From NCBI RefSeq assembly GCF_000023065.1, contig NC_012691.1:1098501-1162500 (forward strand): a stretch of DNA of 64,000 nucleotides, written 5' to 3'. Each line of letters begins with the position of its first letter. Position 1 is the stretch's first letter. Below, in pieces: positions 6,258 to 61,516 of this stretch. The notes below the pieces were generated by a model, which worked only from the letters and a program-made list of their open reading frames with translations, made no database searches and was not told the origin of the DNA. Both the position numbers and the translations under genes were made by a program. The DNA comes from Tolumonas auensis DSM 9187 (GTDB lineage: Bacteria > Pseudomonadota > Gammaproteobacteria > Enterobacterales > Aeromonadaceae).

Positions 6258-6354
6258 CTTCAGCTCCATGAGTTAGTTATAAATATAGTCAATAACAGAA
6301 AACGGAAATTAATATGAAAAAAGTGACCTGCAATAAATGTGCGAGAATGTAAGT

Positions 6355-6369
6355 TGTAGGAACATTACA
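6355..6369. promoter_or_regulatory. HexR-like operator upstream of pykA
   Basis: TGTAGGAACATTACA is a 15-bp dyad (TGTAG-N5-TTACA) between hexR and pykA. It fits the form TGTARTNNNATTACA remembered for HexR sites with one mismatch. A second half, TGTAA at 6348-6352, adjoins it. Confidence 0.5.
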
Positions 6370-6451
6370 GGCCAGTTGTGTCATTTCGATGATACGAAAC
6401 GACACATTTTGATACATGATGAGGGCATGATGCGGGATATAGGAGATGATT

Positions 6452-7303
6452 TCACTGATGCAGTGATTCAAAGCGGGAATCTTTTATCCCTTCTTTGACC
6501 TTCTTCAAATTTTCGCGAAATTTTACGCCTCGGCGTAATGTAAATCCGGTCGCTAAGACATCAATTAATGCCAGTTGTGCGATACGCGAAGCCATTGGCA
6601 GATAGACATCAGTGTCTTCCGGCACATCCATTGATAACACCAGATTACATTGGGCGGCTAATGGGGAATCCTGTGCCGTAATACCTATCACCGTTGCATC
6701 ATTGTGGCGCGCCAGTGCTGCAATTTCGACCAGTGCTTTGGTGCGGCCGGTATGCGAGATCACGACAACGACATCACCGTCACTGCTATTAATACAGCTC
6801 ATCCGCATCATGACGATGTCATCAAAACAGACAACAGGAATGTTAAAACGGAAGAATTTATTCAAGGCATCATGGGCTACGGCTGATGATGCCCCCAGAC
6901 CAAAAAACGATATTTTTTTTGCCTGCGTGAGTAAATCAACACACCGGTTAACTGCGGTGGTATCCAGGCTGTTTTTGGCTACTTCCAGACAGGCAATTGT
7001 CGATTCAAATATCTTCGCGGTATATTCGTCCGGCGTGTCATGTTCTTCGACATGCAGATTCACATACGGCGTGCCATTAGCGAGGCTCTGTGCCAGATGC
7101 AGCTTGAAATCGGGGAAGCCTTTTGTGTCGAGACGACGACAAAACCGGTTAACTGTTGGTTCACTGACATCCGCCATTTTGGCGAGCGTAGCAATGCTGG
7201 AATGAATCGCGACTTGAGGCGAATGTAGAATCACTTCGGCGACTTTACGCTCTGATTTACTGAAATGTTCCAGATGTTTAGTGATTTTTTCCAGTGTATT
7301 CAT
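6452..7303 (-). CDS. hexR: HexR, RpiR-family regulator of glucose catabolism
   Basis: 283-aa regulator. The N-terminal RpiR helix-turn-helix (residues 1-77, with VSEPTVNRFCRRLDTKGFPD) is followed by a SIS sugar-phosphate binding domain (about 125-260, with ISHTGRTKALVEIA). Closely matches E. coli HexR throughout. HexR senses 2-keto-3-deoxy-6-phosphogluconate and controls central carbon genes including glk, pykA, zwf and gapA. Two of these, pykA and glk, flank it here, with candidate operators on both sides. Confidence 0.95.
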   Translation of the reverse strand: MNTLEKITKHLEHFSKSERKVAEVILHSPQVAIHSSIATLAKMADVSEPTVNRFCRRLDTKGFPDFKLHLAQSLANGTPYVNLHVEEHDTPDEYTAKIFESTIACLEVAKNSLDTTAVNRCVDLLTQAKKISFFGLGASSAVAHDALNKFFRFNIPVVCFDDIVMMRMSCINSSDGDVVVVISHTGRTKALVEIAALARHNDATVIGITAQDSPLAAQCNLVLSMDVPEDTDVYLPMASRIAQLALIDVLATGFTLRRGVKFRENLKKVKEGIKDSRFESLHQ

Positions 7304-53542: not shown

Positions 53543-53611
53543 ATCTAACTTCTAATTAAACGGCGGCACGTAGTGCCGTTGATGCTCACATTCTAAATTG
53601 GTTTGTTAAAG
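53543..53611 (-). repeat. attC-like site A
   Basis: 69-bp imperfect palindrome. On the minus strand it ends in GTTAGAT, a perfect GTTRRRY box, and begins CTTTAAC, one base off RYYYAAC. The centre GGCGGCACGTAGTGCCG is shared with sites B, C and D. The cassette gene at 53593 ends inside it, as is usual for integron cassettes. Confidence 0.72.
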
Positions 53612-54006
53612 TCAATAAGTTTTGACATTAGAAAAGCAACTTTTATTGAGGGGAAAATAAAGTCGGTATTAACTTTATTGTTCAAATTATCAATTGAATT
53701 GTCAATTATTGCTTTAAGTTTTAAATATGCGGTATCTTCATCGATGCCATCAACTTCAATATAAAACCCAAGAGCTGTACTAACAAAAGGTGTAGCGAAC
53801 TCTTTGGTTTGCGCTTCGAGCTTTTTCACACTACAAAATAAGTTATAAATTATTTTTGCATTTACAGCTAATTGAATAAAGTCATCTTTTGTTGGATTTT
53901 GGTGAGCATTAATGAAATTGTTAATGTCTAGGATGCATTGTTCATACAGTGTTAGTATTTTTTGCTCATGTTCTCGTTGTGCTTTGCTTTTAAAGAAATT
54001 GAACAT
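53593..54006 (-). CDS. Cassette protein of unknown function (137 aa)
   Basis: Unrecognised soluble protein. The start at 54006 (MFNFFKSKAQREHEQK) has AAGGA 7 nt upstream; the longer frame to 54102 lacks a ribosome site. Composition is rich in Lys, Asn, Ile and Phe, AT-rich, and predicted mostly helical. It is second of two genes in the same cassette, and its stop lies within attC-like site A. Confidence 0.65.
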   Translation of the reverse strand: MFNFFKSKAQREHEQKILTLYEQCILDINNFINAHQNPTKDDFIQLAVNAKIIYNLFCSVKKLEAQTKEFATPFVSTALGFYIEVDGIDEDTAYLKLKAIIDNSIDNLNNKVNTDFIFPSIKVAFLMSKLIDFNKPI

Positions 54007-54268: not shown

Positions 54269-54328
54269 GGCTAACTTTTACTCAAATGGCGGCACGCAGT
54301 GCCGTCCAGTTTCAAGTTTTTGTTAAGC
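54269..54328 (-). repeat. attC-like site B
   Basis: 60-bp imperfect palindrome. Minus strand begins GCTTAAC (perfect RYYYAAC) and ends GTTAGCC. Inner arms ACTTGAAACTGG and CCATTTGAGT pair with bulges, and the centre is GGCGGCACGCAGTGCCG. It separates the two-gene cassette from the split cassette gene, whose stop codon lies in the first box. Confidence 0.75.
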
Positions 54329-54650
54329 TTCTTTTCTCAAATTTTTATAATGTTCTTGTACTGCTTTCTCTACGGGGGCTCGCATCATGCCATCATAGCT
54401 CTCAGGAAATATAATATATTGCCACGCCATGAGATTTAGTGGATCCGTTTTAGTTGAGTGACATTTTTCATCTAAACTATGCTTAGCCATTATTTCAGAA
54501 TACGTTACATCATTATTGCCAATGCCAATGAATTTATTTGAAAACTCATAAAAGCACTCAATTAAATCAACATATATATCTTGAGCTAGCATAGGAATTT
54601 CATATGGATAGCCTAAATAACTGTTCCGAAATGTAGATCACTTGGTGGGA

Positions 54651-54716
54651 GTAACTCGGTTTTAGTTATGCGATCATATCGTCGCCAAACTAAACAATCG
54701 CCCAAAACCGAGTTAC
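54651..54716. repeat. 13-bp inverted repeat before the IS630 transposase start
   Basis: GTAACTCGGTTTT (54651-54663) and AAAACCGAGTTAC (54704-54716), perfect arms, 40-nt loop. The second arm ends 4 nt before the transposase ATG and would occlude its ribosome site in a readthrough RNA. Confidence 0.65.
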
Positions 54717-54720
54717 CGCT

Positions 54721-55740
54721 ATGTTACCAGTTTTATCTCGCGCCGAACGCAGACGCATCGAAAAAATCATTTATAAAACCAACGATAAAGAACATGCCCG
54801 GCGTCTGACTGCTATTCTCATGCTGCATCAGGGGCAGACTGTTTCGATGGTTCATCAACTGACTGCCGCTGCTCGTTCTTCTATTCAACGCTGGCTCAGC
54901 TGGTATCAGGAATGTGGTATTTCCGGTCTCGAAAGTAAACAACGCGGACGATTTTGTTCTTTGCCATACCAACAAATTCGACTCATTTTAGAGCTGCTTA
55001 TTCAGTTCTCGCCAGAAGATTTTGGTTATCAACGTTCACGTTGGAGTTCAGAGCTTTTTGCATCGCTTATTCATCGCATGTGTCCAGAACTCAACATTGC
55101 TGCCTCTACCATCCGCCGTTGGTTACCTAAAATGGGCATTGTTTGGCGTAGAGCTGCGCCGACACTCCATATTCGTGACCCACATCGTGATGAGAAAATG
55201 GCATTAATAAACAATGCATTACAAAGTCACTCTATTAATGAACCGGTTTTTTATGTCGATGAAGCAGATATCGACCTGAATCCTAAAATTGGTGCGGATT
55301 GGATGCGTCGTCATCAACAAAAACGAATACCCACACCAGGGAAAAACGAAAAACACTATGTTGCCGGTGCACTTAATAGTCAGACGGGCAAGGTAATTTA
55401 CACCACAGGGCTGAGTAAGGATTCAGACCTATTTATTCAACTACTGGAAAAGCTGAAACGGCATTACCGTCGGGCGAAGAAAATTATCCTGGTCCTTGAT
55501 AATTACGTGATCCACAAAAGCCAAAAGACGCAGGTATGGCTCAAGAACAATCCAAAATTTGAGTTACTGTTTCAACCTGTTTACTCACCGTGGGTCAATC
55601 GGATTGAACTACTCTGGCGCTCAATGCACGAGATGGTCACCAGAAACCACCGATGTCGGGCGATGTGGGAATTATTGCGAAAGGTGAAGTATTTTTTAGA
55701 TCATGTCAGCCCGTTTGCAATAGCAGCACAGAATAAATAG
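54721..55740 (+). CDS. IS630-family transposase
   Basis: 339-aa DDE transposase. The N-terminal helix-turn-helix part (about 1-120) is followed by the catalytic domain with Asp in FYVDEADID, Asp in ILVLDNYVIHKS and Glu in PWVNRIELLWRSMHE. The frame is intact, so the element may still be active. Confidence 0.92.
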   Translation: MLPVLSRAERRRIEKIIYKTNDKEHARRLTAILMLHQGQTVSMVHQLTAAARSSIQRWLSWYQECGISGLESKQRGRFCSLPYQQIRLILELLIQFSPEDFGYQRSRWSSELFASLIHRMCPELNIAASTIRRWLPKMGIVWRRAAPTLHIRDPHRDEKMALINNALQSHSINEPVFYVDEADIDLNPKIGADWMRRHQQKRIPTPGKNEKHYVAGALNSQTGKVIYTTGLSKDSDLFIQLLEKLKRHYRRAKKIILVLDNYVIHKSQKTQVWLKNNPKFELLFQPVYSPWVNRIELLWRSMHEMVTRNHRCRAMWELLRKVKYFLDHVSPFAIAAQNK

Positions 55741-56282
55741 GTGGAGCACAATTAGGATCAGTTATTTAGTTCTAACAAATGATAATAGACAATATGAGGA
55801 GGTTTCCAAGAGTTACTTGCTAACAAACGGATTTTATTGATTAAAATTCTAAATTCTGATGGTAAATAAATCGATAATTGCGTAATGCAATCTACCATTT
55901 GTCTATCAAGCTCAAGTCGATTTTTCTCAAAATCATCAGGTAATCCAGCTTTGTTAACGATGTATGAAACGTATGTGTTGAACATAAGCCAATGGTTATA
56001 AAAGTTCGAATTAAGTTTTTCAAGTGCTGGAAGTATTCTATTCAGCTTTAATATCTCAAATTCTGTTTGTTTCAAAATGAGATTTTTCTGAGTGTCTAAA
56101 GAATTAGTTATTTCAATTTTCTTAATTTCTAATCTATTTTTTGACCAATCTTCAAAAACCGACTTTAGAACATATTTCCATAATGTGAATACAGAAATAA
56201 TGATTAAGGCAAATATTGATGAATATGTCCCAAGTGCTTTAAGTAATTCGAATATTGTCGTCAACATATATTTCTCAAAGAA

Positions 56283-56324
56283 GCTTAACTATTACTTAAA
56301 TGGCGGCATATAGTGCCGTTGATG
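56283..56324 (-). repeat. attC-like site C, GTTRRRY half
   Basis: Minus strand ends in GTTAAGC, a perfect GTTRRRY box. The centre GGCGGCATATAGTGCCG is as in sites A and B. The other half is displaced by the IS3-family element. The split cassette gene begins 16 bp after the box. Confidence 0.65.
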
Positions 56325-56352
56325 TTCACCCGATAAAATGGACACGCGTTTA

Positions 56353-57237
56353 TTAAGCGGCATGTTCAAACTGTATCGGAGATACATAATTGAGGCTACT
56401 GTGCAGCCGCACCTTATTATAAAAATTCCGGATGTATCTGCTGATCTGATCTCTCAGTGCAGATACCGTCGGAAAATAATTTTCGTAAATCAGTTCAGAC
56501 TTTAACGTCTTAAAAAACGATTCAACTTCAGCGTTATCGGTGCACTGACCTGGCCGGTTCATACTATGTCGGATCCCAAATTTATTGAGCCAGATTTGCA
56601 TGGCTTGTGCTCTGAACTCAACGCCACGATCTGTATGTAGGATGAGACCCGGTTTTGGTTTCCGTTGTTTCAATGCTTGATATAAAGCAGCAACAGATAA
56701 TTCAGCATTGAGTTTCTCATGGAGCGCCCAGCCAATAATTTTCCGCGACCAGAGGTCAACAATGACCGCGAGGAAGACATGCCTGTGACCATGTCGGATA
56801 TAGGTGACATCGCTAGACCACTGTTGATTTGGTCCTGTTGGCTTGGGCGCCTGCAAGCGATGATTTGGCAGCACTTTTAATTCAGCCCGCATCTTACTCA
56901 ATCGTTTATAAACACGCTCAACGCGAGCTTTTAAGCCATTTTCTCGCATCAATCTGGCCACTCGTTTCTGACTAACGACAACACCTTGAGTCCGAAGTGC
57001 CTGATAAACTTTAGGACTGCCGTATCGTTCCGCCGATGCCTTGAAGACACGCTTAATGTGCGTCAGTAACACAGCATCCTGTTGCACATGAACACTGGGA
57101 GTGCGCTTTAGCCAGTCATAATAGCCACTACGTGAAACGCCAAGTCGTTGGCAAAGACGTTTCACAGAGAGGTGAGAAGCATGCTTTTTTATGAATTGGA
57201 ATGCTTCCGTCGTTCCTCGGCCAGAAAGCGTTGCCAC
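56353..57237 (-). CDS. IS3-family transposase OrfB
   Basis: 294-aa rve-type integrase core, residues from the GTG at 57237. HTH-like region with LCQRLGVSRSGYYDW, then DDE residues in QQWSSDVTYI, LHTDRGVEF and DNAEVESFFKTLK. Normally made as an OrfAB fusion by -1 frameshifting at the A6G run (57237-57243), which lies right at its first codons. Confidence 0.92.
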   Translation of the reverse strand: MATLSGRGTTEAFQFIKKHASHLSVKRLCQRLGVSRSGYYDWLKRTPSVHVQQDAVLLTHIKRVFKASAERYGSPKVYQALRTQGVVVSQKRVARLMRENGLKARVERVYKRLSKMRAELKVLPNHRLQAPKPTGPNQQWSSDVTYIRHGHRHVFLAVIVDLWSRKIIGWALHEKLNAELSVAALYQALKQRKPKPGLILHTDRGVEFRAQAMQIWLNKFGIRHSMNRPGQCTDNAEVESFFKTLKSELIYENYFPTVSALRDQISRYIRNFYNKVRLHSSLNYVSPIQFEHAA

Positions 57238-57533
57238 TTTTTTAGGATGTCGTTTTCCTCTTCAAGTTCAGCAATACGTTTTCTGAGTTTTTTAAGTTCA
57301 TCCTGCTCTTTGAGCTGGGCATTGGGCTTAGAAGGTTTGGTTGTGGGCTTCATCGGACCATATTTCCCTTCACGAAATTCTTTACGCCAACGAGACAACA
57401 TAAAGGGATGAATGTCCAGTGCAGCAGCGACATCCTTTACTGATCGCTGAGGGTCGAAACTCCATTGAACGGCTTTCATTTTGAACTCGTCAGAGTACTT
57501 AAAAATACGTTTAGCATTGGTATAAGCGGGCAT
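57189..57533 (-). CDS. IS3-family OrfA
   Basis: 114-aa DNA-binding protein: helix-turn-helix (VKDVAAALDIHPFMLSRWRKEF) and a C-terminal leucine-zipper-like helix (LKKLRKRIAELEEENDILKKW). Overlaps orfB by 49 bp; the slippery AAAAAAG lies at the ILKKW codons. Confidence 0.92.
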   Translation of the reverse strand: MPAYTNAKRIFKYSDEFKMKAVQWSFDPQRSVKDVAAALDIHPFMLSRWRKEFREGKYGPMKPTTKPSKPNAQLKEQDELKKLRKRIAELEEENDILKKWQRFLAEERRKHSNS

Positions 57534-57587
57534 TGATGACCTCTGGATTAGTTATCAATGCGTGTCCGAAAAAGTGGGTGAAGTCCA

Positions 57588-57613
57588 CGTCCAATTTCAA
57601 GTTTTTGTTAGAA
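57588..57613 (-). repeat. attC-like site C, RYYYAAC half
   Basis: On the plus strand, CGTCCAATTTCAAGTTTTTG then TTAGAA. It differs from the matching part of site B by one base in 23. Together with 56283-56324 it would rebuild a site of the same kind, cut at its centre by the IS3-family element. Confidence 0.6.
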
Positions 57614-61440: not shown

Positions 61441-61516
61441 GCCTGATGTTTAATTAAACGGTAGCACATAGTGCCGTCCAGTGAGCGAATGCGAACGTGT
61501 CTGAATTATTTGTCAG
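61441..61516 (-). repeat. Degenerate attC-like site D
   Basis: The core GGTAGCACATAGTGCCG and the adjoining TTTAATTAAAC match site A, but the end boxes are degraded (CATCAGGC where GTTAGGC would be expected, TGACA where TAACA would be). It lies between the 61506-62030 gene and blc, as expected between cassettes. Confidence 0.5.

Follow-up and report, generated by a model that had tools for sequence, protein, structure and literature searches.

A cassette gene very probably split by an IS630-family insertion in an attC cluster of Tolumonas auensis

Insertion sequences of the IS630 family move by excision and reinsertion, and ISY100, a relative of IS630, cleaves two bases in from its 5′ ends (PMC2170065). 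ISY100, IS630 and the Tc1-mariner elements share a single DDE transposase, terminal inverted repeats and a duplicated TA target. Elements of the IS1111-attC group target the attC sites of integrons (PMC11187229), and IS1397 and ISKpn1, of the IS3 family, insert in REP palindromes (PMC1525189). Cassette clusters known as CALIN consist of open reading frames on one strand, parted by attC sites with R″ and R′ boxes and lying away from any integrase gene. The cluster described here belongs to Tolumonas auensis, almost certainly strain TA 4T (PMC3236046), a free-living bacterium of lake sediment, and lies in a window of 64,000 nucleotides, bases 1,098,501–1,162,500 of the 3,471,292-bp single-contig genome. 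It shares the features of a CALIN but is small, and one of its attC sites and one of its reading frames are interrupted by two different insertion sequences. The insertion of an IS into a cassette gene is an ordinary, common event; here it has hit an uncharacterised cassette family.

The IS630-family element and the joined reading frame

The IS630-family element occupies positions 54614–55768 of the window on the plus strand and is 1155 bp long, including a TA at each end (54614–54615 and 55767–55768). Its transposase of 339 aa (54721–55740, plus strand) scores 240 bits against NF033545, for which the cut-off is 100, and matches the DDE_3 domain PF13358 at 2e-26. The terminal repeats are imperfect, 19 of 22 positions matching when one flanking base is counted in. 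Since the genome contains three more copies with identical ends and TA on both sides, which differ from this one by 0, 0 and 2 of the 1155 bases, the borders of the element are certain. The DDE transposase, together with the terminal inverted repeats and TA duplication seen in all four copies, places it in the IS630 family, with no notable difference from its IS630 and Tc1-mariner relatives; the closest relatives on plasmids have about 64–65% DNA identity over about 60% of the element. The near-identity of the four copies suggests that the element was recently active.

The element is flanked by two short minus-strand reading frames, which the earlier note took for halves of one gene. When 54614–55766, that is, the IS and one TA, is left out, the minus strand reads TTA GAA CTA GGC TAT CCA, and a single frame of 263 residues and a stop runs from 56267 to 54323; on re-reading, the coordinates, the junction GAA CTA / GGC TAT CCA and the length of the frame all proved exact. 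The 5′ part (55767–56267, minus strand) supplies codons 1–167, and its frame at present runs into the IS630 element and stops at 55758 after 169 aa. The 3′ part (54323–54613, minus strand) supplies codons 168–263 and the stop, and appears in the mechanical list of open reading frames as an 89-aa ORF starting from an internal ATG at 54592. The remaining two frames of this downstream part are packed with stops; when the bases of its 96 codons were shuffled 20,000 times, the frame remained open in only 9.

The further statement that excision restores the frame is correct as arithmetic, the loss of the IS and one TA being in frame, but not as an account of real excision, which may leave extra bases; clean removal is not assured because ISY100 cuts inside its 5′ ends. 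This bears on the view that the element leaves frequently enough for the gene to be whole again in some of the cells, as a form of phase variation. Such a view draws on the excision and reinsertion of IS630 elements (PMC2170065) and on the in-frame loss just described, but the position of the ISY100 cuts means that repair need not be clean (PMC2170065), and the empty site is absent from all data examined: the searches brought up no strain whose TA site is empty, and no close relative in the collections searched carries the cassette. We therefore regard phase variation as very improbable.

Homologues of the joined protein

When plasmid records were searched by tblastn with the joined protein, the sole hit was the 760-kb replicon of Salinivibrio proteolyticus TGB10 (39% identity, residues 23–258, E 3e-56), in which the match is a single annotated hypothetical protein of 256 aa, WP_096631753.1. 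When the halves were compared with this protein separately by BLASTP, the first matched residues 17–153 (45%) and the second residues 162–252 (33%, E 7e-20), so that the two matches follow one another and do not overlap; the eight residues lying between them align gap-free. A first scan of genome contigs found nothing; a second, made with an alignment of the two sequences, returned an intact homologue of 259 aa in a Cellvibrio MAG (Cellvibrio sp. UBA7671), which is 56% identical to the Salinivibrio protein and 43% to the joined protein, as well as a decayed fragment in Desulfococcaceae HSG9. Thus two single full-length homologues cover both halves, and no complete protein corresponding to one half only was found, the one partial match, that of HSG9, being a decayed pseudogene. 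The intact homologues are few (n = 2) and 39–43% identical to the joined protein, and it is from their alignment that the ancestry of the exact junction is judged. Ten other Tolumonas genomes, searched with each half, contained no homologue; the family-level search with the joined protein gave chance-level matches only, profile searches at order and class level gave no convincing relative, and two scans of viral contigs and a phage collection contained no homologue.

These matches bear on whether there is one gene or two. That two independent genes flank the IS, and that the joined open frame arose by chance, accords with the mechanical listing, in which each half is an ORF of its own; against it, a single protein in each of two genera is matched by both halves in succession, few shuffles remain open over 96 codons as the joined frame does, and this frame begins at an attC border and ends at the following one. 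We give this reading practically no credence. The earlier note was right to treat the two small genes as halves of one, both matching successive stretches of single intact proteins, and also in warning that separate annotation hides a family. One 263-residue cassette gene interrupted by an IS630 insertion is, on the DNA and protein comparisons, almost certainly the explanation of the whole.

It may also be asked whether both halves are still made and act together as a split protein. The halves are free of stops and frameshifts, and the downstream one contains the internal ATG at 54592; but identity among three of the four IS copies makes the insertion look recent, in which case the halves should be intact even if nothing selects for them, and neither homologue is split. 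A functioning split protein is accordingly a very unlikely outcome, and the interrupted single gene is the reading followed below.

Searches of Pfam and NCBIfam with the three homologues gave weak, chance-level matches only, PADLOC gave no match for them and hence assigned them to no known anti-phage defence family, and a sequence search of the PDB gave no match. An AlphaFold2 model of the Cellvibrio homologue with the two window halves had a mean pLDDT of 51, too low to justify a fold search, and showed helices only, the N-terminal one being long. The intact protein, which has one N-terminal hydrophobic stretch, is probably anchored in a membrane and mostly helical. Because its neighbours in Salinivibrio are a restriction endonuclease and a toxin–antitoxin pair, phage defence is the leading guess at its role, albeit a tentative one that may well be wrong.

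Cassette borders and integron setting

The downstream border of the split cassette is its attC, site C (54269–54328, minus strand), which reads GCTTAAC...GTTAGCC, has R″ and R′ boxes and a hairpin fold with z = −2.3 to −2.5, and is 80–94% identical to stretches in the large cassette arrays of sister species. The stop TAA (54323–54325) falls inside its R″ box, GCTTAAC (54322–54328), and the attC stands directly 3′ of the reading frame. On the upstream side, 22 bases separate the ATG at 56267 from the R′ box of attC site B (GTTAAGC at 56283–56289), and the R′ side of this site (56283–56319, minus strand) forms the preceding cassette border directly 5′ of the frame. Its R″ side (57588–57613, minus strand, with R″ at 57607–57613) has been split off by an IS3-family element; if 56320–57587 and one CGT are left out, a complete attC resembling site C is obtained. 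The claim that the joined gene exactly fills the space between sites C and B consequently stands for the start and stop, which lie at attC borders, and needs amending for site B, which is not whole. A search of Rfam gave no match in the split-gene region.

The two homologues occupy comparable positions. Around both, GTTAAGC immediately precedes the gene, GCTTAAC closely follows its end, and a box of the GTTAG type lies some 90 to 190 bases beyond. Like the joined protein, they are full-length, collinear and placed between attC-like boxes; they differ in being intact and in having attC sites of other, longer types. Since attC-like boxes bracket both of them too, this gene seems to move as a cassette in three families of Gammaproteobacteria, which differ in their attC types.

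Next in the array is attC-like site A (53544–53612, minus strand), in which GCCGT is followed by TGATGCTCAC, where CCA is usual; in complete attC cores of sister species, CCA follows in 82 of 84. The sequence TGATGCTCACATTCTAAATTGG after GCCGT in site A (53579–53601) resembles the left end of the IS3-family element, TGATGTTCACCCGATAAAATGG, and is possibly the remnant of a like insertion. Beyond the cluster, at 61462–61477 of the window, there is half an attC-like motif, TAGCACATAGTGCCGTCC, with clear partner boxes absent.

The cluster lies between rhlE and yjjG. In three sister species yjjG adjoins the riboflavin synthase gene, and in T. auensis the two are separated by rhlE and the cassette cluster. 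The corresponding locus of a sister genome (G002) was considered as a cassette-free site and rejected, as yjjG adjoins other genes there. On one strand, four sister species have 40 to 67 attC cores, against six exact cores in T. auensis. The only recognisable intI of T. auensis is in broken pieces at genome positions 791,296–792,041 (L011; L023 about 6300–7040), about 360 kb from the cluster; no match to TIGR02249 over the cut-off was found in the T. auensis genome, and the array has no functional intI beside it of the kind that marks a complete integron. Because the sole recognisable intI is broken and so far off, the window cluster is classed as a CALIN and the gene in it as stranded. Several other Tolumonas genomes have intact copies of the integron integrase and large arrays. 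In the cassette region beside the broken integrase, a set of genes resembling a Type III-A retron (reverse transcriptase, winged-helix protein and PRTase, by PADLOC) lies on the minus strand at L023 3571–6038.

What is observed comprises the insertion with its TA flanks, the open joined frame, the geometry of the attC sites and the intact homologues that span the junction; beyond this we infer a loss of function and an order of events. The ancestral cassette, of about 860 bp, would have consisted of a short leader, the ORF of 263 residues and attC C. The recently active IS630 element would then have entered the TA inside codon CTA (Leu167), duplicating the TA and splitting the gene. The upstream half would now yield a truncated product of 169 aa with terminal residues derived from the IS, while the downstream half, lacking the gene's own start, is most likely silent or non-functional. 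The split gene would thus be a pseudogene stranded in an attC cluster without an integrase.

The same type of event has apparently taken place in a sister species. In the cassette array of one sister genome (G006), two IS630 copies, 92.6% identical, lie in TA sites (L057 9189–10343; L058 16401–17555), and when they are left out, open frames of 277 and 215 codons run across the junctions. The splitting of the T. auensis gene thus seems to be one instance of something that happens repeatedly.

The neighbouring IS3-family element and the meaning of the locus

The element in attC B (56320–57587, minus strand) is 1268 bp long, has TG...CA ends (TGATGTTCACCC / GGGTGAAGTCCA) and a 3-bp duplication, CGT, and scores 325 bits against NF033516. 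There are three complete copies in the T. auensis genome, including that of the window, two of them at the same attC position: the second (genome 787,295–788,562; L033/L023) occupies the matching stem position of an attC close to the broken intI and has the duplication CGT, and the third (genome 32,528–33,795; L032) lies outside any attC, with the duplication AGC. Plasmid pKAZ2 carries a 92%-identical copy (L051 2501–3768) at the same place in an attC-like site of different sequence, with the duplication GGT. E. coli genomes gave no DNA match to the element; viral contigs contained no relative of it, and the sister-species arrays examined had no copy.

Because three of the four complete copies seen lie at the same position in attC stems that differ in sequence, with 3-bp duplications, it is suggested that the element targets integron attC sites, directed by the hairpin, a proposal we lean towards only slightly. 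If this is true, it would be an IS3-type counterpart of the IS1111-attC group, comparable to IS1397 and ISKpn1 of the IS3 family with their REP palindrome targets. A literature search of limited extent found no IS3 element that targets attC, and the recurrence of this element at one attC position may be a more novel finding than the split gene.

The locus reveals a small family of cassette-borne proteins that appears to extend over three gammaproteobacterial families and that is hidden if the two halves are annotated separately. More generally, the insertion of an IS in cassette arrays leads to false small genes in annotation, and the same type of IS630 element has apparently repeated this in a sister species. 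With the neighbouring IS3-family element, the targeting of attC hairpins by an IS family can be put to the test.
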